A DNA stretch of 40,588 nt from Candidatus Gemmiger stercoripullorum (GTDB taxonomy: Bacteria > Bacillota > Clostridia > Oscillospirales > Ruminococcaceae): positions 1 through 40,588 of the forward strand of contig DWXD01000070.1 of NCBI GenBank assembly GCA_019119365.1, read 5' to 3'. The notes beneath the pieces are model-generated. The model was not told the origin of the DNA and did not search any database. It was given only the letters and a program-made list of their open reading frames with translations. Shown piece by piece: positions 154 to 19,883 of the stretch; position 1 is the first letter of the stretch; each line of letters begins with the position of its first letter. The translations under genes were made by a program, and so were the position numbers.

Positions 154-166
154 GTGCGCCGATATT

Positions 167-292
167 TGCAAGAATTTCTCCGCGAAGTCTCATCTTGTGA
201 TACTAAGTGGAGAAATGGTGACGTTTTGAACGCTACATAAAATATATCGCCGCTATTTTATCGCCATTTTACGGCGATAAAAACGGCGATAT
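167..292 (+). repeat. Two-hairpin dispersed repeat, copy 1 (older copy)
   Basis: About 126 bp sharing a common plan with 18842-18964. It has a first imperfect inverted repeat between TTCTCC and GGAGAA, a spacer, then a second inverted repeat built on CGCCG...ATCGCC and GGCGAT...CGGCG. The first hairpin here has roughly 12 of 17 arm positions paired, against a perfect 17 in copy 2, so this copy is more decayed. It is AT-richer than its surroundings. It may be a mobile MITE/REP-like element; no transposase is present. Confidence 0.75.
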
Positions 293-457
293 GCTTCTTG
301 TATCTTTGAATTGGGCCCATACGTCAATTTAGACGGAAGGAATCAATCTCTCCCGCATTGTCAGGGGTGTAAGGGGCAGGCAATTTCACCATTCCACATA
401 TTGTGACTCAAGCGGTTCAAATAGCAATCTCTCTTTGATCATAACATCACCTCTAAC

Positions 458-604
458 TTATGCCGTATACAGCATAAGTTTCCGCTTAAGCGAACACGGG
501 TCCGTTTCCAGGGAAGCGTACAGACCGCGAAACAGGTTGCTGACAACAAACAATGGGATGCCCCAAAAGAGCAGCATACCGCCAGCTTTGCGCAGGGCTG
601 ACGG
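458..604 (-). pseudogene. Decayed C-terminal fragment of a possible membrane protein
   Basis: On the minus strand a frame open after TAG at 605-607 runs to TAA at 458-460. It encodes a hydrophobic run (LLFWGIPLFVVSNLF) followed by a basic tail, about 48 residues. There is no start codon with a ribosome site. Just downstream, ATG 440-442 has a GAGGTGAT site but its frame stops after 18 codons at 386-388. This looks like the end of one gene and the start of the next, both broken. I cannot name either. Confidence 0.35.
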
Positions 605-607
605 CTA

Positions 608-988
608 TTTGACTACCAACGCCGCGCAGCGCCGCCAACGGGCACGGGAAAAGACTTTGCCGGCGTTTTGCGCACCGTACAGCCTTGTGCAAAAGCGGCA
701 AAGAATCACGCTCGGACGCCGTTTCGGTTTGGATGTCTGAGTTCTCCGACTCCAAAGGCCAGAGGTTTGCCCCCCCGTCGGCAGCGGGCAGTGCTTTTTG
801 GGCACTACTCTTTTTTAGTTTGTGTTAAAAAACCACAGTGTCGGCCGCGGTCACAATGGCCGGGGCGCCCGGTGCAAGAAACACAAAATCACATTCTCCT
901 GCGCAAACGCGAATTGGCCGGTATCTGTACAGGGCGATATCCAGTCTCCCGGCCCGGGCGCCCTGCCGGAAGTGTGAATAGCCTCCCG
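608..988. other. Gap with no gene that I can support
   Basis: Several short open frames exist on both strands, but none has a ribosome site, a recognisable domain or consistent codon use. Together with the decayed fragment to its left this looks like eroded sequence downstream of the minus-strand hydrolase gene. Confidence 0.5.
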
Positions 989-1804
989 TCACAGCCGTTC
1001 GAGGAATTTTACAAGGAGCGCGTTCACTTCGTCCGGGGCGTCGGTGTTGGCATTGTGCCCGGCGTTCCTGATCCACACCAGCGGAATACCGGTGTGCTTG
1101 TGCCATGCCTTGTTATACCGGATGCAGGAACCGGCGCGGTCTTTTTCTCCGCAGACCAGCAGCGCCGGGCAGGGGATCTTGTAGGCAAGGCCGGCTTCCA
1201 TGGCCTGGGCCAGTATCCGGAACCCATGCCCCGAAAGTTTGGCGTACCTCTCCCGGTCGCCGTCGTAGGCCATCATCATCTCGTGCATCAGGGCTTGCCC
1301 GTAGGCGGAGGTGGCTACGCCTTTTGACCCGGTTTTCAGCAGGGATTTCCACGGGTAATGGCGGTAGACCGGTTCCATCCGTTTGAGGAGCCACAGTTCG
1401 ATGCCCGTCACATATTTTCTTTGCAGCGGGGCGGAGTCAATGGAAACAAAACCCTTCAGTTTGCCGGGGAACAGTTCCGCGTAGGCCTGGCCCACATAGC
1501 CGCCCATGGACTGCCCTATGATCACCGGGCGGCGCAGGTTTTCCGCGCACAGAATCCCATCCAGCCACCTTGCTTTGTCCATCAGGGAAAATTCCAGCCG
1601 GAACGGCCAGGAAGCGCCATGGCCGGGGGCGTCCCAAACCAGCAGGTTGTATTTCCCCGCAAAAAAGGCGACCTGTTTGTCAAACAACCGATGGTCCGCA
1701 GTCAACCCGGGGAGGAAAACCAGCGTGACCCCGTCAGGGCCATGCTCCTGGCTGACCCAGTAATGGATGCCCCCGCAGGGCGTGGGATAGATTTTTTCTT
1801 GCAT
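989..1804 (-). CDS. Alpha/beta hydrolase
   Basis: A 271-residue single-domain alpha/beta-hydrolase fold enzyme, probably cytoplasmic since no signal peptide is visible. The oxyanion motif is FLPGL near residue 30, the nucleophile elbow GQSMGG puts Ser at 99, the acid is probably Asp222 in CGEKDR, and the catalytic His is His250 in NAGHNAN. Length is usual for small esterases and hydrolases of the MhpC/BioH-like type; the substrate cannot be told from sequence. The ATG is chosen because AAAGGAG lies 7-8 bases upstream. A TATAAT-like -10 box sits at 1846-1851 (minus), with no good -35. It is divergent from the amt gene and appears monocistronic. Confidence 0.9.
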   Translation of the reverse strand: MQEKIYPTPCGGIHYWVSQEHGPDGVTLVFLPGLTADHRLFDKQVAFFAGKYNLLVWDAPGHGASWPFRLEFSLMDKARWLDGILCAENLRRPVIIGQSMGGYVGQAYAELFPGKLKGFVSIDSAPLQRKYVTGIELWLLKRMEPVYRHYPWKSLLKTGSKGVATSAYGQALMHEMMMAYDGDRERYAKLSGHGFRILAQAMEAGLAYKIPCPALLVCGEKDRAGSCIRYNKAWHKHTGIPLVWIRNAGHNANTDAPDEVNALLVKFLERL

Positions 1805-2067
1805 GGCCGTCTCCTTTTGTGAAACATCTGTTGTGCGCTGTCCCCATTATACAGCGGGCAGGGACAAAAGCATAGCCGTTTTTCGGCGTCTGTAAGGCAG
1901 GGGGCTGTGCTGTATCGTTGGATATGGCAGGGCAGCACACTTCCCGGCGGTTCGCCCTCCCCCGCCGCCCACACCCGCAAACCGCCTGCCTTTGCGCATT
2001 TTGCACAATGGGCGGGCGGTGCGGCTTGTGCAAAACGGCCACCTGCGCCAAAAATGCGGGGCGGGGA

Positions 2068-2096
2068 TTGACGGGCCGGGGGCCCGGGCGTATACT
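2068..2096 (+). promoter_or_regulatory. Promoter of the amt-PII gene
   Basis: TTGACG at 2068-2073 and TATACT at 2091-2096, separated by exactly 17 bases. The expected transcription start is near 2103, about 200 bases before the ATG, leaving a long leader that begins with a terminator-like hairpin. Confidence 0.8.
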
Positions 2097-2112
2097 ATGG
2101 GCATGGCAAAGG

Positions 2113-2145
2113 CGCCGGGGAGTTTTCTCTCCGGCGTTTTCTTTT
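2113..2145 (+). terminator. Leader terminator-like hairpin upstream of amt-PII
   Basis: CGCCGGGGAG (2113-2122), loop TTTT, CTCTCCGGCG (2127-2136), all ten pairs formed with one G-U wobble, then TTTTCTTTT. It begins about 10 nt after the predicted transcript start. The gene to the left is divergent, so this is not the terminator of an upstream plus-strand gene. It is a candidate conditional terminator. Confidence 0.75.
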
Positions 2146-2299
2146 GCCCGGAAAAGTGTTCCGGTGCGCATCCCGAACCACTCGCAAAGGGGCGAGTCCT
2201 GTTTTGCAAGCAGGGCCCGCCCCTTTTCTGCTGCCGTGCAGACCCCGCAAGCCCCTGCCCGGCGGCGGAAAACCAAACATAGAGGGAGGAATTCTGCTT

Positions 2300-4027
2300 A
2301 TGACCGACGTCATTTCCATCATCGACACTTTGTGGGTGCTGTTGGCGGCGATCCTCGTGTTCTTTATGAACCTGGGCTTTGCCTCGGTGGAGGCGGGCTT
2401 CGCCCGCGCCAAAAACTGCGTCAACATCCTGTCCAAAAACTTTATCGTCTTTGCCGTGTCCTCGCTGGGCTTTATGCTGCTGGGCTGGGGGCTGATGTTC
2501 GGCGGCGACAACCCCTTCATCGGCACCGAGCATCTGTTTGTGCTGGGCGGCGCGGACCTCAGCTTTTATGACGATACGCTGACTTCCACCGTGCCGTTCT
2601 GGGGCAAGTTCTTTTTCCAGCTTGTGTTTTGCGGCACGGCGGCCACCATTGTCTCCGGCGCGGTGGCCGAGCGCATCAAGTACCTTTCGTTCATCCTCTT
2701 TTCCTTTGTGCTCACGCTGGTCATCTACCCCATCGTCGGGCACTGGATCTGGGGCGGCGGCTGGCTGGCCGATCTCGGCTTTATGGATTTCGCCGGGGAC
2801 GCCGCCGTGCACTCGGTCGGCGGCTGGGCGGCTCTGGCCGGGGCGCTGATTTTGGGCCCGCGCATCGGCAAATATGATAAAACCGGCAAGCCCCAGGCCA
2901 TCCCGGGGCACAACATGTCGCTGGCCGTCATTGGCCTGTTCGTCCTGTGGCTGGGCTGGTTCGGGTTCAACCCCGGCTCCACCATGAGCTTCCAGCACCC
3001 GGCGGACGTCATGCACATCCTGGTCACCACCAACACCGCGGCCATCGCGGCCGTGCTCACCTCCACCGTCACCTCCTGGCTGGTTGTCGGCAAGCCGGAC
3101 CTGGGCATGACGGTCAACGGCTGTTTGGCGGGCCTTGTGGGCATCACCGGCTCCTGCGCCTATGTCAGCATCGAAAGCTCGCTGCTCATCGGCGCCATCG
3201 CCGGTGTGCTGGTCGTGTTTGCGGTCGGTTTCTTTGACCGCCTGCATGTCGACGACCCCGTCGGCGCGACCGCCGTGCACCTGTGCTGCGGCGTGTTCGG
3301 CACGCTGTGCGTCGGCCTGTTCGCGCAGGAGGGCGTCACCACGCTTTCCACCCGCAGCGGCCTGTTCTTTGGCGGCGGCTTTGGGCTGCTGGGCGTGCAG
3401 GTGTTGGGCGTGCTGGCCGTGGGCGCGTTTGTCTTTGTGACAAGCGGCCTTGTCTGGCTGGCGCTCAAGCACACCGTCGGCATCCGCGTCAGCCGGGCGG
3501 AAGAGCTCGCCGGGCTGGACATCGGCGAGCACGGCAACCTGGCTTACCCCGACTTTGCCCCTGCCCTGCCGGTGGAGGACCTGGGCGCGGAGGCCCTGCC
3601 CGCCGCCCCGGCCGCCCCGGCGGCCGTACCGGTGCAGCAGGCCGTGCCGGTCGAGCACCGCGCGGCATCCGGCGCGCTGACCAAGCTCAGCATCGTCACC
3701 AACCAGGCGCGCTTTGCCCAGCTGCAGAAGGCGCTGGAGGAGCTGGGCGTCACCGGTATGACCGTGACCAACGTGTTCGGCTACGGCGTGCAGAAGGGCC
3801 ACGAGGCGACCTTCCGCGGCCTGCCCATCGAGGCCCGGCTGCTGCCCAAGCTGAAGGTGGAGGTCGTTGTGGCCGACATCCCGGTGGACGCTGTGCTTGA
3901 CGGCGTGCGCAAGGCGCTGTATACCGGCAGCATCGGCGACGGCAAGATCTTTGTCTACGACGTCGAGAACGCCGTCAAGATCCGCACCGGCGAGCAGGGC
4001 CGCGAAGCGCTGCAGGGCGCCGAATAA
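2300..4027 (+). CDS. amtB: Ammonium transporter fused to a C-terminal PII (GlnK-like) domain
   Basis: A 575-residue fusion. Residues 1-410 are an Amt/Mep/Rh channel with many membrane helices and the twin pore histidines His171 (in AAVHSVGG) and His327 (in ATAVHLCCG). A linker rich in Ala and Pro (about 425-458) leads to a complete PII domain at about 462-575, with a T-loop around GYGVQKGHE and the carboxy-terminal IGDGKIF and RTGE motifs. The tyrosine uridylylated in enteric PII (Tyr51) is Ile510 here, so control by that route is unlikely; nucleotide and 2-oxoglutarate sensing remain possible. In most bacteria glnK is a separate gene next to amtB; here transporter and gate are one chain. ATG 2300 follows GGGAGGA at a good distance; the frame is also open upstream but has no better start. 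Confidence 0.95.
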   Translation: MTDVISIIDTLWVLLAAILVFFMNLGFASVEAGFARAKNCVNILSKNFIVFAVSSLGFMLLGWGLMFGGDNPFIGTEHLFVLGGADLSFYDDTLTSTVPFWGKFFFQLVFCGTAATIVSGAVAERIKYLSFILFSFVLTLVIYPIVGHWIWGGGWLADLGFMDFAGDAAVHSVGGWAALAGALILGPRIGKYDKTGKPQAIPGHNMSLAVIGLFVLWLGWFGFNPGSTMSFQHPADVMHILVTTNTAAIAAVLTSTVTSWLVVGKPDLGMTVNGCLAGLVGITGSCAYVSIESSLLIGAIAGVLVVFAVGFFDRLHVDDPVGATAVHLCCGVFGTLCVGLFAQEGVTTLSTRSGLFFGGGFGLLGVQVLGVLAVGAFVFVTSGLVWLALKHTVGIRVSRAEELAGLDIGEHGNLAYPDFAPALPVEDLGAEALPAAPAAPAAVPVQQAVPVEHRAASGALTKLSIVTNQARFAQLQKALEELGVTGMTVTNVFGYGVQKGHEATFRGLPIEARLLPKLKVEVVVADIPVDAVLDGVRKALYTGSIGDGKIFVYDVENAVKIRTGEQGREALQGAE

Positions 4028-4070
4028 CCGTTTTGACATTCCCTGTTACAACAACACCATAAAAAGGCAC

Positions 4071-4104
4071 GCCCCCGGCCGCTGTGAAAGCAGCGGCCGG
4101 GGGC
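4071..4104. terminator. Strong hairpin after the amt-PII gene
   Basis: Fourteen perfectly paired bases (GCCCCCGGCCGCTG with CAGCGGCCGGGGGC) around a six-base loop. On the minus strand the 3' side carries GCCTTTTTAT, so the clear U-tract reads in the minus direction; on the plus strand the tail is poor. It probably separates the convergent amt and hisH-side transcripts. Confidence 0.6.
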
Positions 4105-4188
4105 GGCGCCATTTGGCCGGGCGCTCGCCATGGTTTGTAGGGGAGGGATTTATCCCTCCCGCGGGGCCTTGCCCGCCGCGGGGTCCGC

Positions 4189-4277
4189 GGGACGATCTCC
4201 GGCCTAAGAGCCGGGCCTGTGGCCCGGTTGGCCTCCGAAACGCGCCTGCGGGCGCAGTGCGAGCATCGTCCCCTACA
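4189..4277 (+). repeat. Structured repeat element, copy 1
   Basis: An element of about 89 nt that starts GGGACGAT and ends ATCGTCCC, which pair to close it. Internal hairpins are GGGCC-TGT-GGCCC and GCGCC-TGCG-GGCGC, plus an alternative CCGGC...GCCGG pairing. Nearly identical copies lie at 4549, 4880, 36039 and 37559, all in the same orientation, with a truncated one at 40443. Confidence 0.8.
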
Positions 4278-4548
4278 AAGGTCCGATATAACCGCAGAGG
4301 CGCGGCTTGCCCGTTTGGCCGCGGGCCCTTCATGGTTCGTAGGGGAGGGATTTATCCCTCCCGCGGAACCTTGCGCCGCCGCGAACCGGGCGGATATGGA
4401 ATCCGCCCCTACAGGGGCTTGTGGCAGCGCGAGGCCTGCGGTTTTCCGGCGGGCCGCCATGTTGGCCCCGGCCCGTAGGGCGGGCGTTCACGCCCGCCGC
4501 ACCTTGGGAATTTCAAAAATCGCGGGCCTGCGTCGCCGCGGGGTTCCC

Positions 4549-4637
4549 GGGACGATCTCCGGCCTAAGAGCCGGGCCTATGGCCCGGTTGGCCTCCGAAA
4601 CGCGCCTGCGGGCGCAGTGCAAGCATCGTGCCCTACA
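4549..4637 (+). repeat. Structured repeat element, copy 2
   Basis: Same plan as the copy at 4189. The middle hairpin loop reads TAT instead of TGT, and the 3' closing strand has one change (ATCGTGCC), which breaks a pair. Stems are otherwise kept. Confidence 0.8.
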
Positions 4638-4879
4638 TGTGTTCGTTATAACGCGGGGTTGTGGTTCCCCGGTTGGCCGCGGGCCTGCCGTGGTTCGTAG
4701 GGGAGGGATTTATCCCTCCCGCGGGCGCTCCCGCCGCCGCGGGGTCCGGCGGGATGAGGGCATCCCGCCCTACGGCCGCCCGGGGGCGTGTGCCCTTCCC
4801 GTTTGGCCGGGCGTTCGCCATGGTTTGTAGGGGAGGGCCATGGCCCTCCTGCGGAACCTTGCGCCGCCACAGGCCCCGC

Positions 4880-4968
4880 GGGACGATCTCCGGCCTAAGA
4901 GCCGGGCCTGTGGCCCGGTTGGCCTCCGAAACGCGCCTGCGGGCGCAGTGCAAGCATCGTCCCCTACA
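4880..4968 (+). repeat. Structured repeat element, copy 3
   Basis: Near-identical to the copy at 4189, with the closing GGGACGAT/ATCGTCCC stem intact. It is directly preceded by a GGGCCATGGCCC palindrome and followed by a GGGATTTATCCC palindrome. Confidence 0.8.
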
Positions 4969-5210
4969 GAGGCCCGATATTAACCGCAGGGCCGCGCTTT
5001 GCCCGTTTGGCCGAGGGCCTACCGTGGTTCGTAGGGGAGGGATTTATCCCTCCCGCGGGACCTTGCCCCGCCGCGAACCGGGCGGATATGGAATCCGCCC
5101 ATAACAGGGGTTTGTGACGGCGCAGGGTCTGCGGTTTCCCGGCGGGCCGCCATGTTGCCCCGGCCCGTAGGGTGGGCGTTCACGCCCGCCGCACCTTGGA
5201 AATTTCAAAA

Positions 5211-5242
5211 ATCGGGGCCCTGCGCCGCCGCAGGGCCCCGAT
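5211..5242 (-). terminator. Terminator of the glnA-hisH operon
   Basis: ATCGGGGCCCTGCG and CGCAGGGCCCCGAT form a 14-bp stem. On the minus strand it is followed by TTTTTG, six bases after the hisH-like stop codon. On the plus strand a weaker T-rich tail follows. Confidence 0.85.
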
Positions 5243-5247
5243 CATTT

Positions 5248-5907
5248 TTAACACCCCAAAACACCCGCGCCCGCCACAAACGCCCGTAAAATCTCGAGCC
5301 CCGCGGGGCCGCTTTTTTCGGGGTGGAACTGCAGGCCGGTCACGTTGGCGCGCTGCACGGCCGCGCAGACTTCCCGCCCGCCAAACTCGATAACGGCGGC
5401 GCAGTCCTGCGCGCGGGCGGGCAGGGCGTGGTAGCTGTGCACAAAATAGACTTCCGGCGCGTCCGCCCCGGCCAGCGCGCGCAGCGGGCCGCTTTGCGCG
5501 GCCGGGGTCAGGCGCAGCGCGTGCCAGCCGACGTTGGGGATTTTCAGCGCGCTGCCGTCCGCAGCGCGCACAGGCAGCGGCGCGACCTCGCCTTCAATCA
5601 ACCCCAGCCCCGCGGTCAGCCCGCCTTCGGGGCTTTGCTGCAACAGCATCTGCATGCCCAAGCAGATGCCCAGCAGCGGCGTGCCGGCGCGCGCGGCGGC
5701 ACAGAGCGGCTCCGCCAGGCCCAGCGCGCGCAGCTGCGCCATGCCGTCGGCAAACGCGCCGACGCCGGGCAGCACCAGCGCCCCGGCCGCGCGCACGGCG
5801 GCCGGGGTGTTGGCAAACTGTACTTCGGCCCCGCAGGCCTCCAGCGCGCGCTGCACGCTGAGCAAATTGCTGCGGCCGTAGTCGACGATCGTCACACAGG
5901 GTCGCAT
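5248..5907 (-). CDS. HisH-like glutaminase subunit of an amidotransferase trio
   Basis: A 219-residue class I glutamine amidotransferase that releases ammonia from glutamine for its partner synthase. The nucleophile is Cys82 in GICLGMQ, and His195 and Glu197 lie in QFHPEKSG. The N-terminus VTIVDYGRSNLLSV is typical of HisH. The ATG at 5905-5907 follows GGAGGTGAG and overlaps the HisF-like gene by 16 bases, so translation is probably coupled. Its position right after a WbpG-type ATP-pyrophosphatase and a HisF-like gene, with no other his genes, points to the WbpG/HisF2/HisH2 type of system (acetamido to acetamidino conversion on sugars) rather than histidine synthesis. The operon ends here with a strong terminator. 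Confidence 0.9.
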   Translation of the reverse strand: MRPCVTIVDYGRSNLLSVQRALEACGAEVQFANTPAAVRAAGALVLPGVGAFADGMAQLRALGLAEPLCAAARAGTPLLGICLGMQMLLQQSPEGGLTAGLGLIEGEVAPLPVRAADGSALKIPNVGWHALRLTPAAQSGPLRALAGADAPEVYFVHSYHALPARAQDCAAVIEFGGREVCAAVQRANVTGLQFHPEKSGPAGLEILRAFVAGAGVLGC

Positions 5908-6674
5908 CGTCTCACCTCCACACCGGCGGCGCGCAGCGCGCTTTTGAGCGCGGGTACGCCGGTTTTTTCGTAATGCAGCAGGCTGCCCACCGCCGCGGCG
6001 TCGGCCCCGTTCTGCGCGGCCTGCGCAAGGTCGGCGGCGCAGGATGCCCCGCCCGCGGCGATGACGGGCACCTGTGCTTCGGCGGCCACGGCGGCGATGA
6101 GCGCCTGGTCCATGCCGCGCAGAAAGCCTTCGCAGTCGACGCTGGTCAGCAGAATCTCCCCCGCGCCCAAAGCCTGCGCCTGGCGCGCCCATTCCAGCAC
6201 GTCGCGGCCGGAGTGTTCGCGCCCGTTGTCGTAGTAGGCTTCCCACCCGGCTTCGGGGCGGGCGGGGTCGCGGCGCTTGGCCTGGATGCTGACCACCGCG
6301 CACTGGCTGCCGTAGGCGCGCGCGATCTCGGTGATGAGCGCCGGGCGCTGCAGCGCGGCGGTGTTGACGGCGGCCTTGTCGGCCCCGGCGGCCAGCACCG
6401 CGCCCACGTCCGCGGCGCTGCGCAGCCCGCCGCCCGCCGTGATGGGGATGAACACATCGGCCGTGGCGCGGCGCAGAATTTCGCCCAGGTTGTTGCGGCC
6501 GTAGAGGCTCGCCACCGTGTCGAGATACAGCAGTTCGTCGATGCCCTGCCGGTAATACCGCACGGCGAAGTCGTGCGGGTCGCCGAGCTTGCGCAGCCCC
6601 TCGTACTGGATGCCCTTGACAAGGTATTCGTCCTTGACGTCCAGCCGGGCGATCAGGCGTATTTTTTTGCTCAT
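5892..6674 (-). CDS. HisF-like ammonia-channel synthase subunit
   Basis: A 260-residue TIM-barrel protein of the HisF family. Asp12 in RLIARLDVKD matches the catalytic Asp11 of histidine-pathway HisF. The second catalytic Asp (Asp130, usually in a V-x-I-D motif) is Gln131 here (VVSIQAKRR). That change, and the context, argue that this is not imidazole glycerol phosphate synthase but the HisF2/WbuZ-type partner that passes ammonia from the HisH-like glutaminase to the WbpG-type enzyme. Phosphate-binding glycine loops (TAGGGL, AAGGAS) are present. The start ATG at 6672-6674 overlaps the upstream stop as ATGA, a sign of translational coupling. Confidence 0.88.
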   Translation of the reverse strand: MSKKIRLIARLDVKDEYLVKGIQYEGLRKLGDPHDFAVRYYRQGIDELLYLDTVASLYGRNNLGEILRRATADVFIPITAGGGLRSAADVGAVLAAGADKAAVNTAALQRPALITEIARAYGSQCAVVSIQAKRRDPARPEAGWEAYYDNGREHSGRDVLEWARQAQALGAGEILLTSVDCEGFLRGMDQALIAAVAAEAQVPVIAAGGASCAADLAQAAQNGADAAAVGSLLHYEKTGVPALKSALRAAGVEVRRCDPV

Positions 6675-8053
6675 ACCGCGCCGCCTTTCCCAAGGCTTTC
6701 CGGCGGCGCGCCCCAGCGGCAGAGGCTTTCGCCCGCGTAGGGGGTGTGGCGCAAACTCCACACGCCGTCTTTATACTGCCACAGGTGGGGCGAGCGGAAC
6801 CGGTCGGCCAGGTGCATGAAGTAGGCAAGGTCCATCTCCGGCTGTTCAAAACAATCGGCCGCCTTGCCGAAATGGGCTTTGTCGATGGAGATATAGCGGA
6901 AGAATTCTTCGGCAAAGCGGGCGGGGAACTCGCCGTCGAACTTTTTGCACAGGGCGACGGCCTCCTCGCGCGTGATCTCGCCGTTGCGGATCTCCTGCGC
7001 GGCGTCGTAGGTGCAGCGGCCGATGCCGTACTTGATGTAGGTGGTGTAGTAGAAAAAGTCGTCGACCTTATCGTCGATGGAGTTGTATTTGGAGTAGGTG
7101 CCCGCCGTGCGCTCGGGGCTGGGCACAAAGCCGCCGTGCTCGACCGCATAGTAGTAAGCCCCCTGCGGGTGCCAGCGCTCGTAGTAGCCCAAATAGCGCA
7201 CCTGAATGTGGTTTTTCTCGATGTCGCTGGTCTCGCCGGGCAGGTAGAGGGCAAGGTCGGCCTTGTCGATGCCGAAATCCTCCTCCAGCTGGCGCAGGCT
7301 GACGCCGCCCAGATAAATGTGGTCATAGTCGTTGACGGCGAAGAAATGTTCGTCCCGCAGCGCGCTCTCGTTGTCCGCGATGGGGTTGCCGAACTCGGCC
7401 TCGTTCTCGCCGTAGAACACGAGCGGGATGCCGAACTTGGCGGCGATCTTGGGCGCGAGCTGCTTCTGCCCCAGTATAAACGGCTGGAACGGGTGGAACA
7501 GGTTCTCGGTCGCCAGGCGGGTCAGCAGGCGGTGGGTCAGGCCGTTGGGGGTGCACAGGTAGTTGTCGAACCCGGCGTGAATCCACGCCTGGAAGTTCTG
7601 CCACCCCCAGGGGGTGTAGATGTGCGGCGCCCAGGTCACGGTCAGCGGGTGCATGCCGTATTTGTATTTCAGCAGGTGGGCGGCGTAAAAGCTGTCCTTG
7701 CCGCCGGAGCCGGGCACCAGGCAGTCATAGCTGCCGTCGGTTTTGCGGTAACGGTCGCACAGTTCGCGCAGTTCTTCCTCGCGCTGCGCCCAGTCGATGT
7801 GGCCGTCGGCTTTCTGGCGGCAGGCGTGGCAGGCGTCGCACACGCCGTCCGGCTGGATGACCATGGTCTTTTTCTTGGAAAGGGCCGTGTGCTCAAACTC
7901 ATAGCAGGAGTTGGGCTTCTGGTTGGTCATGACGCAGTCTTTGCAAAAGGTCACGGTCTGCGGCAGGCCGTAATACGCCGTGCGCCGTTCGGGCGGCAGG
8001 GCGGGGTCGTATTGTGCATAGTCGATCGGCTGGTAACGCGGCAATTTCAGCAT
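6671..8053 (-). CDS. N-acetyl sugar amidotransferase family protein (WbpG/PseA-type ATP-PPase)
   Basis: A 460-residue PP-loop ATP pyrophosphatase. The PP-loop SGGKDS is at residues 116-121. Cysteine pairs Cys37/Cys40 and Cys72/Cys75/Cys78 look like a zinc site, as in this family. Relatives activate an amide carbonyl with ATP and replace its oxygen with ammonia, e.g. in 2-acetamidino sugars of bacterial surface glycans; ammonia comes from the HisF/HisH-like pair encoded next. No nucleotide-sugar, glycosyltransferase or flagellar gene is nearby, so the substrate is open. ATG 8051-8053 has AAAAAAGGAG upstream. The 110-bp gap after the regulator gene holds a large terminator-like fold, so this trio may be expressed apart from glnA. 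Confidence 0.88.
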   Translation of the reverse strand: MLKLPRYQPIDYAQYDPALPPERRTAYYGLPQTVTFCKDCVMTNQKPNSCYEFEHTALSKKKTMVIQPDGVCDACHACRQKADGHIDWAQREEELRELCDRYRKTDGSYDCLVPGSGGKDSFYAAHLLKYKYGMHPLTVTWAPHIYTPWGWQNFQAWIHAGFDNYLCTPNGLTHRLLTRLATENLFHPFQPFILGQKQLAPKIAAKFGIPLVFYGENEAEFGNPIADNESALRDEHFFAVNDYDHIYLGGVSLRQLEEDFGIDKADLALYLPGETSDIEKNHIQVRYLGYYERWHPQGAYYYAVEHGGFVPSPERTAGTYSKYNSIDDKVDDFFYYTTYIKYGIGRCTYDAAQEIRNGEITREEAVALCKKFDGEFPARFAEEFFRYISIDKAHFGKAADCFEQPEMDLAYFMHLADRFRSPHLWQYKDGVWSLRHTPYAGESLCRWGAPPESLGKGGAV

Positions 8054-8082
8054 GGTAAACTCCTTTTTTTGGCAAAACAAAC

Positions 8083-8145
8083 AAGGGCAGGGACGCGCCC
8101 CCGGCAGGGTTTTCCCCTGCCGGGTCTGCGGGCGTCCTTGCCCTG
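8083..8145 (-). terminator. Intra-operon terminator-like fold before the amidotransferase trio
   Basis: On the minus strand an outer stem pairs GGGCAAGGACGC with GCGTCCCTGCCC, enclosing a perfect inner hairpin CCCGGCAGGG / CCCTGCCGGG with a GAAAA loop. It is followed by the U-rich CTTGTTTGTTTTG. It lies between the ANTAR gene stop (8166) and the next start (8053), so it may set or switch read-through into the trio. Confidence 0.7.
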
Positions 8146-8165
8146 CGTTTTGGTTTTGTGGTTTT

Positions 8166-8732
8166 CTATTCGCCCTCGCCCTCATAGCGGCGGATGATGC
8201 TCTGCGCAATCTGCCGCCGGGTGACGCGGGCGTCCATCGCCAGCTTTTCAATGTGGCGGTGGGCTTCGGCTTCGGTCATCTGTTCATGCAGCGCCAGCAG
8301 GCATTTGGCCTGGGTGGTCACGCGCGCGTCGTCCAGCCGCTTGGTCAGGCGCTGGTTTTCTTCCAGAATGCGGCGCATGCGCTGGCGCCCGGCGCGCAGC
8401 AGCCGCAGCGCCAGCGCCGCCTGCTGGCGGGAAAGCGGCCGCGGCAACACCAGCACGCCGTATTTTTCCAGCCCCGCGGCGATCTTGTCCGCCTGCGGCG
8501 CAGCGCACAGCAAAATGGCGTCCAGCCCTTTGTCCACGGCTGTGACCGCCAGCTCGCGGCCGAATTCATCGGGCAGCGGCGTGTTGACGATCAACAGCGC
8601 ATAGTCCCCGCCCAGCAGCGCGCGGCGCGCTTCGCCCGCGCTGGCGCAGCACAAAGCCGCCGCGCCCGCGGCAAACACGCTTTTCAGCGCCGCGTGCGCC
8701 GCCGGGTCGGATACGATCAGCACCCCGGCCAT
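8166..8732 (-). CDS. ANTAR-domain regulator with a degenerate receiver domain
   Basis: An approximately 188-residue response-regulator-like protein. An N-terminal CheY-like fold (about 1-115) is joined by a coiled region to a C-terminal ANTAR domain (about 128-185: AKCLLALHEQMTEAEAHRHI, then a final helix). ANTAR proteins bind paired RNA hairpins in leaders and prevent termination; several control nitrogen genes. The phosphoacceptor Asp is replaced by Asn50 (LLIVNTPLPDE), so phosphorylation at that site is not expected; a non-canonical signal, such as a partner protein or ligand, is more likely. It is co-transcribed 31 bases after glnA. I prefer ATG 8732 (AGGTGA five bases upstream) to GTG 8741, which has no room for a ribosome site. 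Confidence 0.9.
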   Translation of the reverse strand: MAGVLIVSDPAAHAALKSVFAAGAAALCCASAGEARRALLGGDYALLIVNTPLPDEFGRELAVTAVDKGLDAILLCAAPQADKIAAGLEKYGVLVLPRPLSRQQAALALRLLRAGRQRMRRILEENQRLTKRLDDARVTTQAKCLLALHEQMTEAEAHRHIEKLAMDARVTRRQIAQSIIRRYEGEGE

Positions 8733-8762
8733 CCCGTTCACCTGCCTTTCGGGTTACACCGC

Positions 8763-10073
8763 TCACACGCGGTCAAAGTAGGTCTGCATCTCGTACCAGT
8801 GCGGGTCGGGCGCGGCGGCCCAGGCGGCGGCGTCGCGCCGCTTGCGGTCCAGGTAGGCGTCCAGCAGCCGCGCGGGCAGCATGCGGCGCAGAAATTCGCT
8901 CTGTTCGGCCAGGCGCACGGCCTCGGTGAGCGTTTTGGGCAGCGCGCAGCCGCCGGTTTTGGCCCCGGCCAGCAGGTCGCCGCTGGCGGCGGGGGGCAGG
9001 GGCAGGTTTTCGCGCACGCCCTCCAGCCCCGCTTCCAGCAGCAGCGCCACCGCATAATAGGGGTTGCAGGCGGCGTCGGGGCTGCGCAGTTCCATGCGGC
9101 AGTCCGCGCCGCGGGCCGCCGGTACGCGCACCAGGCTCGAACGGTTCTGGCACGACCAGCTCACAACGCCCGGGGCTTCGCAGCAGCCCAGCCGCTGGTA
9201 GGAGCCGGGCAGGGGGTTGGTGAACACGGTCAGCTCGGGCACGCGGCGCAAAATGCCCGCCAGGAAGGCGGCGGCCATCGGGTCGGGCGCGGTCTGGAAA
9301 TCCTCGAACACATTGCGCCCGCCGTGCAAAAGCGAAAAGTTCAGGTGCAGCCCGCTGCCGCTTTTTTCCGGCAGGGGTTTGGGCAAAAACGAAGCGTACA
9401 GCCCGTTTTGCCCGGCGATGGCCTTGACGACGGTGTGCACGGTCATCAGGTCGTCGGCCGCCTGCAGAGGCGAAGCGCAGCGGAAGTCGATCTCGTTTTG
9501 GCCCGGGCCCTGCTCGTGGTGGCTGCGCTCGGGCTGCACGCCCATCTCTTCCAGCGTTAGACAGATCTGGCGGCGCACGTTCTCGCCGCGGTCGACGGGG
9601 GCCAGGTCAAAATAGCCGCCCTGGTCAAACGGCGTGCGGGTGGGCAGGCCGTGCTCGTCGGTTTCAAACAGATAGAACTCACACTCCGGCCCCACCAGGA
9701 AGCGGTACCCCGCGGCGGCCGCGGCCTGCTCGGTGCGCTGCAGCAGCGCGCGGCCGTCGCCCTCAAACGGGCGGCCGTCCGGGTAGCGCACGCTGCAGAA
9801 CAGCCGCCCGACGCAGCCTTCGCTGGGGCGCCAGGGCAGGATGGAAAAGGTGGAAAGGTCCGGCGCCAAAAACAGGTCAGACTCCGACACATGGCCGAAG
9901 CCCGGCACCGCCGAAGCGTCGAACGAGACGCCCTGCTCCGCCGCATGGCGCAGCTGGCTGGCCATGACGGCGATGTTTTTCTGCACGCCGAACATATCGC
10001 AAAACGCCAGGCGAATGAACTTGATATCGTTTTCTTCCACGAACCGCAGCAGCCCGTCAAGCGTCTGTTTCAT
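8763..10073 (-). CDS. glnA: Glutamine synthetase (type I family)
   Basis: A 436-residue glutamine synthetase joining ammonium and glutamate at the cost of ATP. Family motifs are all present: the N-terminal LAFCDMFG loop, metal-binding GPECEFYLF, HHEQGPGQNEIDF, the histidine motif GSGLHLNFSL, the GSYQRL and WSCQNRSS substrate/ATP segments, and ELRSPDAACNPY near the end. No adenylylation-type tyrosine context was seen. Length fits the short GSI-alpha group of Firmicutes. ATG 10071-10073 is chosen because AGGGGG is 8 bases upstream; an in-frame TTG at 10091 lacks a site. It is the first gene of a five-gene operon with the ANTAR regulator and the amidotransferase trio. Confidence 0.93.
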   Translation of the reverse strand: MKQTLDGLLRFVEENDIKFIRLAFCDMFGVQKNIAVMASQLRHAAEQGVSFDASAVPGFGHVSESDLFLAPDLSTFSILPWRPSEGCVGRLFCSVRYPDGRPFEGDGRALLQRTEQAAAAAGYRFLVGPECEFYLFETDEHGLPTRTPFDQGGYFDLAPVDRGENVRRQICLTLEEMGVQPERSHHEQGPGQNEIDFRCASPLQAADDLMTVHTVVKAIAGQNGLYASFLPKPLPEKSGSGLHLNFSLLHGGRNVFEDFQTAPDPMAAAFLAGILRRVPELTVFTNPLPGSYQRLGCCEAPGVVSWSCQNRSSLVRVPAARGADCRMELRSPDAACNPYYAVALLLEAGLEGVRENLPLPPAASGDLLAGAKTGGCALPKTLTEAVRLAEQSEFLRRMLPARLLDAYLDRKRRDAAAWAAAPDPHWYEMQTYFDRV

Positions 10074-10096
10074 AGCAAAGACCCCCTGCAAAATTT

Positions 10097-10137
10097 AAAA
10101 AAGGCGCTGCGCCCCCCTTGGTGAACGCAGCGCCTTT
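10097..10137 (-). terminator. Leader terminator-like hairpin upstream of glnA
   Basis: AAAGGCGCTGCG (minus, from 10137) pairs perfectly with CGCAGCGCCTTT (to 10100), then a U-run. It begins about 10 nt after the predicted start of the glnA transcript and ends about 25 bases before the ATG. It could also terminate the toxin-antitoxin transcript that comes from the same strand. Confidence 0.8.
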
Positions 10138-10151
10138 GCTGTCATGCCTGC

Positions 10152-10180
10152 ATTATACGCGCCGCGCGCCCCGCTGTCAA
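10152..10180 (-). promoter_or_regulatory. Promoter of the glnA operon
   Basis: Perfect consensus on the minus strand: TTGACA (10180-10175), 17-base spacer, TATAAT (10157-10152). Confidence 0.88.
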
Positions 10181-10242
10181 GGCGGCGGCGCGCGGTGTGG
10201 CAGAAAAATTGCGAAAGCTGTGGTGAAGGGCCACCCGCGCCA

Positions 10243-10554
10243 TCACTTCAGCAGCTGGCCGTAATCCCGTTTGGCGTACACCACGCGCGCGACCGTCACC
10301 AGCTTCTTTTCCTCGTCTATCCAGTAAAATATCAAAAAATTGCGCACCGGAATCTTTCGGTACTCGTGTTCCAGCGGGCGGATCGGGCGGTAAGCCGGGG
10401 CTGCATACGGAAAAGGCAGCAGGCTTTCCACCGTATGGACCAGCTCCGCAGCCAGGTGCTCCGCCGCGGCCGGGTTGTGCAGTTTGCGGCTGATATACCG
10501 CACGATCTCCAGCATATCCTTCCGGGCAGCCGGCAGGTACTCTAGCTTATACAA
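10243..10554 (-). CDS. ParE/RelE-family toxin
   Basis: An approximately 103-residue protein starting YKLEYLPAARKDMLEIVRYI, the classic opening of ParE/RelE-superfamily toxins, with the ending R-x-VYAKRDYGQLL. Members either cleave mRNA at the ribosome or poison gyrase; sequence alone does not settle which. It overlaps the antitoxin gene by 8 bases. A TTG start at 10552-10554 is preferred because GGAGGGG precedes it at the right distance; GTG 10576-10578 would add eight residues. The pair is probably a working toxin-antitoxin operon, since both frames are intact and an operator is visible. Confidence 0.88.
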   Translation of the reverse strand: MYKLEYLPAARKDMLEIVRYISRKLHNPAAAEHLAAELVHTVESLLPFPYAAPAYRPIRPLEHEYRKIPVRNFLIFYWIDEEKKLVTVARVVYAKRDYGQLLK

Positions 10555-10825
10555 CTGGCTCCCCTCCAATGGCGTCACGCATCGCTTTCAGCACGTCTTT
10601 GGAGGAGTAGCGCCGGTCCGTCAGCTCGGCCTCCCGTTCCGCCTCCTGCAGCTTTGCATAGACCTCGCTTTCAAACTGCAGGTTTTCATAAGCTTCCATG
10701 CTCAGCACGACCATATCGCCGTATCCGTTTTTCGTCAAAAAAACCGGTTGGGCCGTTTCATGCACGGTCTTTGAAATGTCGGCAAAGTTGTTCCGCAAAT
10801 CGGAAACAGGCCGGATCATCTTCAT
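10547..10825 (-). CDS. Phd/YefM-family antitoxin
   Basis: A 92-residue Phd/YefM-type antitoxin: N-terminal DNA-binding part (IRPVSDLRNNFADISKTV, then FLTKNGYGDMVVLSMEAYE) and a charged C-terminal tail that would wrap the toxin. Two ATGs are in frame; the second, at 10823-10825, is 9 bases from GGAGG, while the first (10831) is only 3 bases away and too close. It is the first gene of the pair and probably represses its own promoter through the palindrome at 10850-10869. Confidence 0.9.
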   Translation of the reverse strand: MKMIRPVSDLRNNFADISKTVHETAQPVFLTKNGYGDMVVLSMEAYENLQFESEVYAKLQEAEREAELTDRRYSSKDVLKAMRDAIGGEPVV

Positions 10826-10844
10826 AAACATCGACCTCCTTGCT

Positions 10845-10869
10845 ATTATATTAGCACAATTATGCTAAT
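10845..10869 (-). promoter_or_regulatory. Operator/promoter of the toxin-antitoxin pair
   Basis: A perfect palindrome, ATTAGCA-TAATTG-TGCTAAT (10850-10869), directly abuts a TATAAT -10 box (minus, 10850-10845). Placement over the polymerase site fits autorepression by the Phd-type antitoxin. The -35 is weak. Confidence 0.75.
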
Positions 10870-10957
10870 ATGGCAAGGCGGTTTGTGTAACTCGCCGCCA
10901 AGCGCGCGCCGCAGGGGGCAACAAACCGTACATTTTGCCAAAGTTTGCGCGCCGTTC

Positions 10958-10986
10958 TTTACACCGCGCCGCGGCCGGGGTATAGT
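10958..10986 (+). promoter_or_regulatory. Promoter of the gltB-gltD-asnB operon
   Basis: TTTACA (10958-10963), 17-base spacer, TATAGT (10981-10986). Predicted transcript start near 10993. Confidence 0.82.
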
Positions 10987-10995
10987 GGAAGGGAC

Positions 10996-11043
10996 AAAGA
11001 CGTCAAAACGCCCCGCCAGGGGTCTGTTTTGGCGTCTTTTTTT
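10996..11043 (+). terminator. Leader terminator-like hairpin upstream of gltB
   Basis: AAAGACGTCAAAAC pairs with GTTTTGGCGTCTTT (one G-U), enclosing a small CCCC/GGGG hairpin, followed by seven U. It begins at about +4 of the predicted transcript and ends about 30 bases before the gltB ATG. The upstream gene is divergent, so this does not terminate another plus-strand gene. Confidence 0.82.
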
Positions 11044-11073
11044 ATTTGCTTATGGCAGGAGGGGGAACATCCC

Positions 11074-15591
<4,518 letters not shown>

Positions 15592-15604
15592 AGGAGGCGC
15601 ACCC

Positions 15605-17089
15605 ATGGGCAAACCCACCGGCTTTCTGGAGTATCCGCGCGAGACCGGCCCCGAGCGGCCGCCGCGGCAGCGGCTGCAGGATTTTAACGAATTCCACCTG
15701 CCGCTTTCCCCCGCCGCCCAGGCCCGCCAGGCCGCCCGCTGCATGGACTGCGGCGTGCCTTTCTGCCAGGCCGGGCAGCCCATGGCCGGTATGACCACCG
15801 GCTGCCCGCTGCATAACCTGATCCCCGAGACAAACGACCTTGTATACCGCGGCGCGCTGGCCGGGGCCTGGCGGCGGCTGCAAAGCACCAACTGCCTGCC
15901 GGAGTTCACCGGCCGCGTCTGCCCCGCTCTGTGCGAAGCCGCCTGCACCTGCGCCAAGGACGGCGAGGCTGTCTGCACCAAAGAGAACGAGCGCGCCATT
16001 GTGGAGTATGCCTTCGCCAACGGCCTGGTGGACAGCGCGCCCCCGCCCGTGCGCACCGGCAAAACGGTGGCGGTGGTGGGCAGCGGCCCGGCCGGGCTGG
16101 CGGCGGCCTGGCTGCTCAACCGCCGCGGCCACAGCGTGACCGTGTACGAAAAAGCCGACCGCCCCGGCGGGCTGTTGCGCTACGGCATCCCCAACATGAA
16201 GCTGGACAAAGCCGTTGTCGACCGGCGCATCGCCGCCATGGAGCGCGCCGGGGTGCGGTTTTGCTGCGGCGCCGACGTCGGCCGCAGCCAGCCCGCGGCG
16301 GAACTGCTGGAACAGTACGACCGCGTGCTGCTGGCCTGCGGCGCGGGCCGCCCGCGCGACCTGGCCGTGCCGGGGCGGGAGGCCAAGGGCATCTGGTTCG
16401 CGGTGGATTTCCTTGGCGCCGTGACCAAAGCGCTGCTGGATTCCAACTTCCAAAAAACACCGTTCGAGCTCGCCAAAGGCAAGCGGGTGCTGGTGGTGGG
16501 CGGCGGCGACACCGGCAACGACTGCATCGGCACCGTGCTGCGGCTGGGGGCCAAAAGCGTGACCCAGCTCGAGATGATGCCCGCCCCGCCCGCCGCGCGC
16601 GCCGCCGCCAACCCCTGGCCGGAATGGCCGCGCGTGGCCAAGACCGACTACGGCCAGCAGGAGGCCATCGAGCTGTTCGGCCGCGACCCGCGCGTCTACC
16701 AGGCCACGGTCTCCCGCTTTGAGGCCGACAAAAAGGGCCGCGTCTGCGCCGCCGTTGTGCAGCGCCTGGCCCCGCGCAAGGACCCCGCCACCGGCCGCAC
16801 CGTCATGGAGCCTGTGCCGGGGCAGGAGGAGACGGTCAAGGCGGAGCTTGTGCTCATCGCCGCCGGGTTCACCGGCTGCGAGCCCTACCTGCCCGCCGCC
16901 CTCGGCGCGCCGCTGACCCCGCGCGGCGTGCTGGAAACGCAGGCGGACGGCTACGCCACCGCGCTGCCGCGGGTGTTTGCGGCGGGCGATGCGCGCCGCG
17001 GCCCTTCGCTGGTCGTGTGGGCCATTGCGGAGGGCACCGGCGCGGCCCGGGCCATCGACGCCTCTTTGATGGGGTACTCAAACCTGTAA
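15605..17089 (+). CDS. gltD: Glutamate synthase small subunit
   Basis: A 494-residue NADPH-dependent beta chain that feeds electrons through FAD and iron-sulfur centres to GltB. The N-terminal cysteine motifs for two 4Fe-4S clusters are present (CMDCGVPFC from Cys46, then CPALCEAACTC from Cys106). The FAD site VVGSGPAGLAAAW is at about 158-170, and the NADPH site VVGGGDTGNDCIG is further on. The closing FAAGDARRGPSLVVWAI segment is typical. The ribosome site AAAGGAGG precedes ATG 15605. A 60-base gap separates it from asnB, with no terminator seen. Confidence 0.96.
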   Translation: MGKPTGFLEYPRETGPERPPRQRLQDFNEFHLPLSPAAQARQAARCMDCGVPFCQAGQPMAGMTTGCPLHNLIPETNDLVYRGALAGAWRRLQSTNCLPEFTGRVCPALCEAACTCAKDGEAVCTKENERAIVEYAFANGLVDSAPPPVRTGKTVAVVGSGPAGLAAAWLLNRRGHSVTVYEKADRPGGLLRYGIPNMKLDKAVVDRRIAAMERAGVRFCCGADVGRSQPAAELLEQYDRVLLACGAGRPRDLAVPGREAKGIWFAVDFLGAVTKALLDSNFQKTPFELAKGKRVLVVGGGDTGNDCIGTVLRLGAKSVTQLEMMPAPPAARAAANPWPEWPRVAKTDYGQQEAIELFGRDPRVYQATVSRFEADKKGRVCAAVVQRLAPRKDPATGRTVMEPVPGQEETVKAELVLIAAGFTGCEPYLPAALGAPLTPRGVLETQADGYATALPRVFAAGDARRGPSLVVWAIAEGTGAARAIDASLMGYSNL

Positions 17090-17149
17090 AGCGGCCAAAA
17101 GGGCGGCCGCCGCGCGCGGCCGGCGGGAACCATAGAGGGAGGAAGGAAT

Positions 17150-18733
17150 ATGTGCACGATCCTGTGTTATGCGGGCGGGGCCGTCGGGCCGGAGGAACTG
17201 CGCGGCTATCTGCTGCGCGCGCAGCACCGCGGGCCGGACGACGCCCGCCTGGCGCGAACGCCGTTCGGCTACCTGGGCTTTGCCCGGCTGGCCATCATGG
17301 GCTTAACGCCCGAAGGCATGCAGCCGTTTGAAGACGGCGGCAGCTGGGCGGTGTGCAACGGCGAGATTTACGGCTTCCGCCCGCTGCGGCGGGAACTGGA
17401 GGCAAAAGGCTACCGTTTCCGCAGCGATTCCGACTGCGAGGTGCTGCTGCCGCTGTGGCGCGAACACGGCTGCGATATGTTCCGGCGGCTGGACGCCGAG
17501 TTCGCCTGCGTTTTGTACGACGGCCAAAGCGGCAGCCTTATCGCCGCGCGCGACCCCATCGGCATCCGGCCGCTGTTTTACGGCCGCGCCAAGGCGGGCG
17601 GCATCGCCTTTGCCAGTGAGGCCATCGAGCTGGAGGGCTGGGTCGAAGAGATCCGCCCCTTCCCGCCCGGGCATTATTATAAGGACGGGCAGTTTGTGCC
17701 GTACACCGATGTGACCAAAGTCGACCGCGTCATAGACGACCCGCCCGAAGAGATCAGCCGCAACATCCGCGAAAAGCTGACCACCGCCGTCATCAAGCGG
17801 CTGGACGCCGACGCGCCGGTGGGCTTTTTGCTCTCGGGCGGGCTGGATTCCAGCCTGGTCTGCGCCATTGCGGCCAAACACCTCGGCAAGCCCATCCGCA
17901 CTTTTGCCATCGGCATGGCGGCCGACGCCATTGACTTAAAATACGCGCGCCAGGCCGCGCGCCACATCGGGGCCGACCACACCGAGGTGCTGATGACCCC
18001 CGAACAGGTTGTCGCCGTGCTGCCCGACGTCGTGCGAACTCTCGCCACCTACGACATCACGACCATCCGCGCCAGCGTGGGCATGTATCTGGTCTGTAAG
18101 GCCATCCACGAGCAGACCGACATCAAGACGCTGCTGACCGGCGAAATTTCGGACGAACTGTTCGGCTATAAATACACCGACTACGCCCCCAGCGCCGCGG
18201 CCTTCCAGCAGGAGGCCGAAAAGCGCCTGCGGGAGCTGTATGCCTACGACGTGCTGCGCGCCGACCGCTGCCTGGCCGCCCACAGCTTGGAAGCGCGGGT
18301 GCCGTTCGGCGACCTCGACTTTGTGCGCTACGTCATGGCCATCAACCCAAGCCGCAAGCTGAACACGACCGGCAAGGGCAAGTACCTGTTGCGGCAGGCG
18401 TTCGCCGGGACCGGCCTGCTGCCGGACAGCATCCTCTGGCGGGAGAAAGCGGCGTTCAGCGATGCAGTCGGCCACAGCATGGTGGACGACCTCAAGGCTT
18501 ACGCCGAACAGCGCTACACCGGCGCGGAGTTTGCGCAAAAGTGCGCGCAGTACAGCGACCCCCGCCCGTTTACCAAAGAGAGCCTGCTCTACCGCGAGCT
18601 GTTCGAGCAGTTCTACCCCGGCCAGGCGCAGATGATCCCCGGCTACTGGATGCCCAACCCCGCCTGGCCCGGCTGCCGCGTCAGCGACCCCAGCGCCCGC
18701 GTGCTCGCCAACTACGGCGCCAGCGGGCAGTGA
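17150..18733 (+). CDS. asnB: Asparagine synthase (glutamine-hydrolysing)
   Basis: A 527-residue AsnB. The class II glutaminase domain starts with the nucleophile Cys2 (MCTILCYAGG) and carries RGPDDARL; the synthetase domain has the PP-loop SGGLDSS at residues 229-235. It makes asparagine from aspartate, ATP and glutamine. It is the third gene of the gltBD operon, so glutamine- and glutamate-using steps are expressed together. GGAGGAAGG precedes the start. The C-terminal EARVPFGDLDFV and KAAFSDAVGHS segments match bacterial AsnB, and length is typical. Confidence 0.95.
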   Translation: MCTILCYAGGAVGPEELRGYLLRAQHRGPDDARLARTPFGYLGFARLAIMGLTPEGMQPFEDGGSWAVCNGEIYGFRPLRRELEAKGYRFRSDSDCEVLLPLWREHGCDMFRRLDAEFACVLYDGQSGSLIAARDPIGIRPLFYGRAKAGGIAFASEAIELEGWVEEIRPFPPGHYYKDGQFVPYTDVTKVDRVIDDPPEEISRNIREKLTTAVIKRLDADAPVGFLLSGGLDSSLVCAIAAKHLGKPIRTFAIGMAADAIDLKYARQAARHIGADHTEVLMTPEQVVAVLPDVVRTLATYDITTIRASVGMYLVCKAIHEQTDIKTLLTGEISDELFGYKYTDYAPSAAAFQQEAEKRLRELYAYDVLRADRCLAAHSLEARVPFGDLDFVRYVMAINPSRKLNTTGKGKYLLRQAFAGTGLLPDSILWREKAAFSDAVGHSMVDDLKAYAEQRYTGAEFAQKCAQYSDPRPFTKESLLYRELFEQFYPGQAQMIPGYWMPNPAWPGCRVSDPSARVLANYGASGQ

Positions 18734-18775
18734 GAACCGCAAGAGCCGGACAGGGCGCACAAAAACAGAAACACC

Positions 18776-18817: not shown

Positions 18818-18841
18818 GCGGCAAGGAAGGCGGGCGGCCAA

Positions 18842-19870: not shown

Positions 19871-19883
19871 CAGGAGATTCCCC

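Follow-up and report, generated by a model that had tools for sequence, protein, structure and literature searches.

A single ANTAR-type hexaloop at the predicted 5′ end of nitrogen-assimilation leaders in Gemmiger points to a NitR-type antitermination regulon

The 40,588-nucleotide stretch of Candidatus Gemmiger stercoripullorum analysed here (contig DWXD01000070.1; hereafter the window) carries an ammonium transporter-PII fusion gene (amt-PII), glnA and gltB, each preceded by a promoter and a leader terminator, and a gene for an ANTAR protein. We found that CAAAGRCG, a segment common to the three leaders, supplies the loop and the closing pair of a small hairpin, with the 5′ arm immediately before the segment; by its sequence, this is a canonical ANTAR-type hexaloop. 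These leaders, together with that of glnN elsewhere in the genome, probably act as single-hexaloop antiterminators of a NitR-type ANTAR regulon, a reading to which we give a probability of roughly 0.8. A first-pass annotation of the window had proposed an antitermination regulon with an ANTAR link and an RNA recognition that might be of a new kind. As far as sequence can tell, comparative evidence now strongly supports the idea that the nitrogen genes form one antitermination regulon with a link to the ANTAR protein; a wholly new mode of recognition falls away, since the loop is the canonical one.

The three leaders share one anatomy. On the plus strand, the amt-PII promoter TTGACG-17-TATACT (2068..2096; 10/12 in the promoter scan) is followed, 7 nucleotides (nt) past the −10 element, by the hairpin TGGC[AAAGGC]GCCG (2104..2117), whose loop and 3′ arm open an intrinsic terminator (2108..2145; −23.6 kcal/mol). 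On the minus strand, glnA has the promoter TTGACA-17-TATAAT (10152..10180; 12/12), the hairpin CAGC[AAAGGC]GCTG (10128..10141) and a terminator at 10097..10137 (−29.6 kcal/mol). The plus-strand gltB leader combines TTTACA-17-TATAGT (10958..10986; 10/12) with GAC[AAAGAC]GTC (10993..11004), whose arms covary with GAAC/GTTC in relatives, and a terminator at 10996..11043 (−27.8 kcal/mol). These promoters are the top three among 8 sites in window bases 1-20000, the range scanned (2.9 expected), and all three terminators finish in T-runs, so the strong 17-spacer promoters and following terminators described by the first-pass annotation are indeed in place. In each leader the small hairpin starts 5-10 nt past the −10 element, and its CAAAGGCG or CAAAGACG segment opens the terminator. 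The amt leader contains a second, internal hexaloop hairpin that had been overlooked, ACTCGC[AAAGGG]GCGAGT (2180..2197, plus strand), which lacks a promoter of its own and is overlapped by its own terminator (2186..2227; −28.4 kcal/mol, tail TTTTCTGC).

All window leaders have a hexaloop with A1 and G4 and a C:G closure, the published signature of ANTAR targets (PMC3369931; PMC7496416; here and below, statements on these and the other cited papers refer to the accessible parts of their text). Because the terminator uses the loop and 3′ arm as its own 5′ arm, only one of the two folds can form at a time. Folded alone, the small hairpin reaches −2.1 to −4.5 kcal/mol against −22 to −30 kcal/mol for the terminator, and would thus need help to win. 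The T-run follows the loop start at a median distance of 30 nt in glnN, 34 in amt and 44 in gltB, so a protein acting here would have little time. Searches of Rfam returned no match up to E 1 for the glnA and gltB leaders and only implausible sub-threshold matches for the amt leader. The octamer alone is weak evidence, with 12 occurrences in the window versus 5.6 expected, and because this enrichment is mild we dropped it as a criterion in favour of a composite of promoter, hexaloop and terminator. The composite occurs in genus leaders more often than chance allows: 66/67 unique leaders pass, versus 61/13,400 dinucleotide shuffles.

Scanning the genome with TANANT-N(5-22)-CAANGRYG gave 29 matches, versus 15 for the reversed pattern used as control. 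Five places remained once a terminator and a minimum of 3 stem pairs were required: the amt, glnA, gltB and glnN leaders and locus L120, which has no promoter-like −35 element as judged by hand and a poor T-tail. The glnN leader lies on another contig (C70) and extends the set of leaders recognized at first; its gene encodes a type III glutamine synthetase (GSIII_N, 271.7 bits). The assembly, which is 90% complete, holds a single ANTAR match.

Across 35 genomes of the genus, we found the ANTAR protein in 32, gltB in 32, glnA in 32, amt in 27 and glnN in 35. The A1/G4 hexaloop is present in 27/27 amt leaders, with the promoter directly before it in every one and a second hexaloop with its own terminator in 4/27 (L092-L095). 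It is likewise present in 29/29 readable gltB leaders (30 of 32 matches were examined, and L048 begins at a contig end without a leader) and, as CAGC[AAGGGC]GCTG, in 28/30 glnN leaders (30 loci of 38 matches); in three glnN leaders (L160, L168, L169) our script detected no T-run. The first-pass annotation had made its case depend on the hairpins being conserved in relatives, and conserved they are, with covarying arms. For glnA, an element with its own promoter was found in 2/30 loci (of 33 matches), in G000 and G004. In 25/32 genus genomes with glnA, glnN lies about 2 kb upstream of it on the same contig. The ANTAR gene follows glnA, so the setting is that of NitR: an ANTAR gene beside a glutamine synthetase gene, and leaders with terminators before glutamine synthetase and glutamate synthase (GS/GOGAT) genes.

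Beyond the genus, we examined the best 80 of 448 loci encoding ANTAR relatives (2,101,790 bases, both strands), which span Gemmiger, Faecalibacterium, Ruminococcus, Agathobaculum, Intestinibacillus, Herbinix and others. This revealed 63 composites in 54/80 loci, every one of them preceding a nitrogen-assimilation gene: 45 glnN, 6 glnA, 3 amt (by BLAST), 8 glutamate-synthase-type amidotransferases (71-81% identical to that of L311; GATase_2 by Pfam) and 1 asnB (L228, cut by a contig end). Not one of the 63 stood before an unrelated gene in the 80 loci on either strand. The core of 17 is identical to a genus leader, as the sets overlap, leaving 46 additional composites. Among glnN starts with upstream sequence, 45/50 pass the scan and 49/50 have an A1/G4 hexaloop, those of L180, L205, L215 and L231 being missed by the strict scan and found by pattern.

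The 191-residue ANTAR protein is encoded behind glnA (8166..8741, minus strand), in its operon as first annotated. Its ANTAR domain (PF03861) scores 47.6 bits against a curated cut-off of 27.3 and follows a receiver-like domain and a long helix. The AlphaFold2 model shows this receiver-like fold, the long helix and a three-helix ANTAR end (predicted local distance difference test score, pLDDT, 85.6; predicted template-modelling score, pTM, 0.64), and Foldseek ranks Rv1626, EutV (RNA-bound and free) and AmiR as the best matches. Equivalents of the EutV contact residues K149, E160, M172 and R175 are kept in 80/80 relatives. The position of the EutV phospho-acceptor, Asp54, is Asn in 21/21 aligned genus members (32 found) and in 80/80 relatives, the latter being a partly biased selection in that one search pattern contained this Asn and the other the Glu equivalent to Arg168. 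The Asp of EutV-type receivers was thus seen in none of the 21 genus members and 80 relatives aligned. Judged from these residues, signal input by classical Asp phosphorylation is unlikely, and a protein partner is the more likely source; we would guess at glutamine synthetase or PII.

A survey of 243 genomes of the class extended the pattern. Matches with CAGC arms occurred in 42/243 genomes, and the reversed control gave 0. Out of 52 matching loci we examined 30, of which 26 precede glnN (12), amt (1), asnA-like (7) or gatC/gatA-like (6) genes; 2 of the 26 fall below the promoter threshold (L264, cut by a contig end, and L273, score 8). The remaining 4 (L266, L278, L279, L280) have another gene or no clear gene downstream and fail on promoter or terminator. 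As representatives, asnA of L258 scores above its cut-off, gatA of L260 is the best NCBIfam match though truncated, and gatC of L259 is assigned by Pfam; the other asnA-, gatC- and gatA-like genes are named from BLAST or resemblance. With the NitR profile at E<=1e-3, a threshold loose enough to let in EutV-type proteins too, an ANTAR match was found in 39/42 genomes with the CAGC pattern versus 89/201 others (Fisher p 1.3e-9, phylogeny ignored). Arms of the GRAC/GTYC type matched in 58/243 genomes; the reversed control also gave dozens of matches, so we used this pattern only for gene lists, as leads. Of 30 such loci examined, 20 pass on promoter and terminator, two of them with 23-nt gaps, and these precede purA, purC, dapF, argD-type, amt, glnA, glnN and amidotransferase genes. 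A pyrG leader (L319, with no script-detected terminator) and one asnB leader have the hairpin and fail one filter each. The like layout before purA, purC, dapF, pyrG and argD-type genes in other Clostridia (L316-L319, L332, L334) points to a possible wider glutamine regulon.

Several observations weigh against the regulon as we read it. Most glnA genes have no element of their own (28/30 starts in the genus; 69/77 usable starts in the 80 loci, where 8/77 pass), and 26/80 loci yielded no composite. The glnN leaders of L171 and L172 have 7-nt loops, and that of L223 has the loop GAAGGT. In the protein, two EutV contacts are changed in 80/80 relatives of the same pattern-selected set (Tyr164 to His, Arg168 to Glu) and Asn173 is Asp in 75/80, while the position of EutV Arg142 is not Arg in the profile. 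The Fisher value for co-occurrence takes no account of phylogeny, and three genomes with the CAGC pattern (G067, G218, G250) gave no match to the NitR profile or PF03861, which leaves absence unproven. The start sites are predictions. Finally, both EutV antitermination studies need two hexaloops, so a single one may not suffice: both hairpins were required in vivo (PMC3369931), and in the structural work each dimer contacts one hexaloop, both being visited in turn for antitermination (PMC8934654).

The first-pass annotation saw no obvious tandem hexaloops, and this holds, though the CAAAG(A/G)CG segment it reported was itself a hexaloop. With a 4-bp stem assumed, the distance from the −10 element to the stem is 5-13 nt for gltB, 9-11 for glnN, 8-10 for glnA and 7 or 16-17 for amt, which leaves no room after the predicted start site for P1, the first hairpin of the dual target. 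Among 146 leaders (the genus and relatives sets, 17 shared), an upstream A1/G4 hexaloop was found in only 3, each overlapping the promoter hexamers, and a wider view upstream added one more (L235, minus strand), likewise over the −35 element; a downstream hexaloop was found in 12/146, 3 of these being the second amt element. A near-identical script recovered both hairpins, P1 and P2, in 4/8 loci of the class with PF12282 (EutW/PdtaS-type) kinases, taken from 8 of 12 genomes with such a kinase; in 7/8 the kinase has an ANTAR match as its neighbour. One of these loci, L308, has the element AAGC[AATGGA]GCTT with no P1 detected. In 15 stretches around weak ANTAR matches we found no dual element and 4 single elements, all before genes that resemble glnA.

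A classical dual target with a non-canonical P1, for instance the apical hairpin of the terminator as second loop, would still escape this test, which detects only A1/G4 hexaloops with stems of at least 4 pairs. Several gltB leaders do have an apical hairpin (in L036 with the loop AAGTGC, by eye), and the second amt element of the window is preceded by a pentaloop hairpin. By eye, the gltB apical loops vary in size and lack A1/G4, and the pentaloop, AAGTG, is absent from L093 and L094, so we rejected both as candidates. Given the short spacing, the rarity of upstream hexaloops and the success of the script on EutW-type loci, we consider a missed P1 improbable. The role and extent of single-hexaloop sites has been posed as an open question (PMC8934654), and NasR binds a single hairpin at ~12 uM, more weakly than both (PMC7496416).

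If the hairpins are RNA elements, their arms should vary together around a fixed loop. In 30 distinct hairpins, hand-picked from 65 distinct 18-mers to span the types, 97.5% of stem cells are paired versus 71.1% after shuffling and doubly changed cells number 42 versus 14.3 (0/500 shuffles), and the covariation score is 0.81 versus 0.29; when the partner is shifted by 1-3 columns, at most 47.5% of cells pair. The full set of 65 was collected with a 3-pair stem as a requirement; in it the three pairs nearest the loop are standard in 65/65, and the alternatives at pairs 2 and 3 are AT/GC and AT/GC/CG. The terminator does not explain this pairing, since the 5′ arm of the hairpin lies outside it. 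These data also bear on the idea that the repeats at +1 are DNA operators for a nitrogen regulator that binds DNA, and that the terminator is incidental. Short inverted repeats directly past −10 boxes, at tight spacing, would suit an operator, but here the half-sites vary by gene (GAAC/GTTC, GGC/GCC, CAGC/GCTG, CTCGC/GCGAG) around a nearly constant six-base centre, the opposite of what an operator should show, and that centre sits within the terminator arm. Covarying arms with a constant loop indicate RNA, and we regard an operator as quite unlikely, somewhat more so than a missed P1.

Least plausible of all is that the hairpins are general promoter-proximal attenuators or 5′ stability hairpins with no ANTAR link: such hairpins with other loops exist, for example in the DUF3793-flavodoxin leader, but the composites stand before nitrogen genes in 63/63 cases, and promoter-proximal combinations of hexaloop and terminator in the 80 loci number 71 for A1/G4 against 68 in total, and at most 9 each, for the 15 other loop classes (different registers counted apart). 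The first-pass annotation had taken the DUF3793 hairpin to be of the same kind; its loop is CGCAAA, with neither A1/G4 nor CAAAGRCG, and we rejected this leader as a member of the regulon.

We therefore return to single-hexaloop antitermination by a NitR-type ANTAR protein, which would work as follows. Transcription would start at, or a few bases before, a hairpin of 3-5 bp with the loop A-A-N-G-R-Y (rarely other letters at positions 2, 5 or 6) closed by C:G, and the T-run of the terminator would begin about 30-50 nt past the loop start. With sufficient nitrogen, the terminator would win over the weak hairpin, and no more than a short leader RNA would be produced. When nitrogen, probably as glutamine, is low, the ANTAR protein encoded behind glnA would become active and grip the hexaloop as it emerges from RNA polymerase, sequestering the 5′ arm of the terminator and allowing read-through into amt-PII, glnA and the ANTAR gene, gltB with the gltD-like gene and asnB, and glnN. 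The direction of control and the signal assumed here follow the NitR literature (PMC6316151) and our own inference.

More tentatively, and with less confidence than an even bet, we propose that one hexaloop suffices if it is transcribed first: a NitR-type dimer would be held on or near early RNA polymerase, with no P1 needed for recruitment, and its pseudo-receiver would sense glutamine status by way of a partner, for instance glutamine synthetase or PII, and not through phosphorylation. If true, ANTAR control would have a separate mode that is widespread in Clostridia and in some lineages reaches pathways using glutamine or ammonia (asnA, asnB, gatCA, purA, purC and pyrG). Leaders whose only canonical hexaloop sits at the predicted 5′ end make the two-loop rule directly testable, and promoter, C[AANGRY]G hairpin and terminator together offer a simple signature for mapping the regulon. 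The arrangement also suggests a way in which ammonium assimilation may be controlled in gut Clostridia such as Gemmiger, Faecalibacterium, Ruminococcus and Agathobaculum.

The genes behind these leaders are arranged as follows. The amt-PII fusion (2300..4027, plus strand) has an ammonium transporter domain (Ammonium_transp, residues 11-416) and a P-II domain (461-565). Assigned by Pfam, glnA (8763..10073, minus strand) encodes a type I glutamine synthetase; its best NCBIfam match is GlnA, at 359.8 bits, below the cut-off of 429. On the plus strand, gltB, the glutamate synthase large subunit (11074..15591), is followed by a gltD-like small subunit (15506..17089; open frame as listed, named by position and domains) and, as the next gene of the cluster, asnB, asparagine synthase B (17150..18733). 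Between glnA and gltB lies a pair of genes for a ParE-like toxin and a Phd/YefM antitoxin (10243-10831, minus strand), so the gene upstream of gltB is divergent, as the first-pass annotation had said. A 692-residue protein (5248-7326, minus strand) has a C-terminal HisH-type amidotransferase domain, with all Pfam matches in residues 480-684, and a thiamine pyrophosphate (TPP) riboswitch lies at 33735-33835 (minus strand; 66.2 bits). In the DUF3793-flavodoxin leader (38910-39200), GTTAG...CTAAC palindromes surround a TTGACA promoter; we take them to resemble the operators of metal regulators. In Gemmiger and Faecalibacterium, the gap between glnN and glnA (for example ~6350-6500 of L178) holds a conserved pyrimidine-rich motif, GCCATTCTCCTTTTCCTATTTCTTACACC, with a GC-rich hairpin behind it; a loose regular expression for the motif matched 26/80 loci, on the plus strand only. 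The glnN leaders of L171, L172 and L223 are natural variants that could help define the loop rules.

The element and protein resemble EutV of Enterococcus faecalis in the C:G-closed A1/G4 hexaloop over the terminator 5′ arm, in fold and in several RNA-contact residues (PMC3369931; PMC8934654). EutV differs in needing P1 and P2 and in having a phosphorylatable receiver (Asp54), whereas here there is no P1, the acceptor is Asn, and Tyr164 and Arg168 are replaced by His and Glu. AmiR of Pseudomonas aeruginosa likewise combines a pseudo-receiver, a coiled coil and an ANTAR domain, with His at the position of EutV Tyr164; AmiR is held by AmiC, and here no such partner was identified. ANTAR regulons predicted in Desulfotomaculum cover glutamate synthase (D. 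reducens) and nitrogen operons (D. acetoxidans), but were found with a dual-hairpin model (PMC3369931). Closest is NitR of Clostridium saccharobutylicum, where antitermination is reported to switch on GS/GOGAT genes when nitrogen is limiting (PMC6316151; PMC4676874). The two regulons have in common an ANTAR protein, ammonium assimilation genes and antitermination, as far as NitR is known to us from citing descriptions; they differ in that the system described here uses one hexaloop at +1 and also covers amt and glnN and, in relatives, asnA-, asnB- and gatCA-type genes. We found no description of a single hexaloop at +1 in the open-licence literature, most subscription papers lying outside the search. 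NitR antitermination in Clostridium is already known, and what looks new is the arrangement of one hexaloop at +1.

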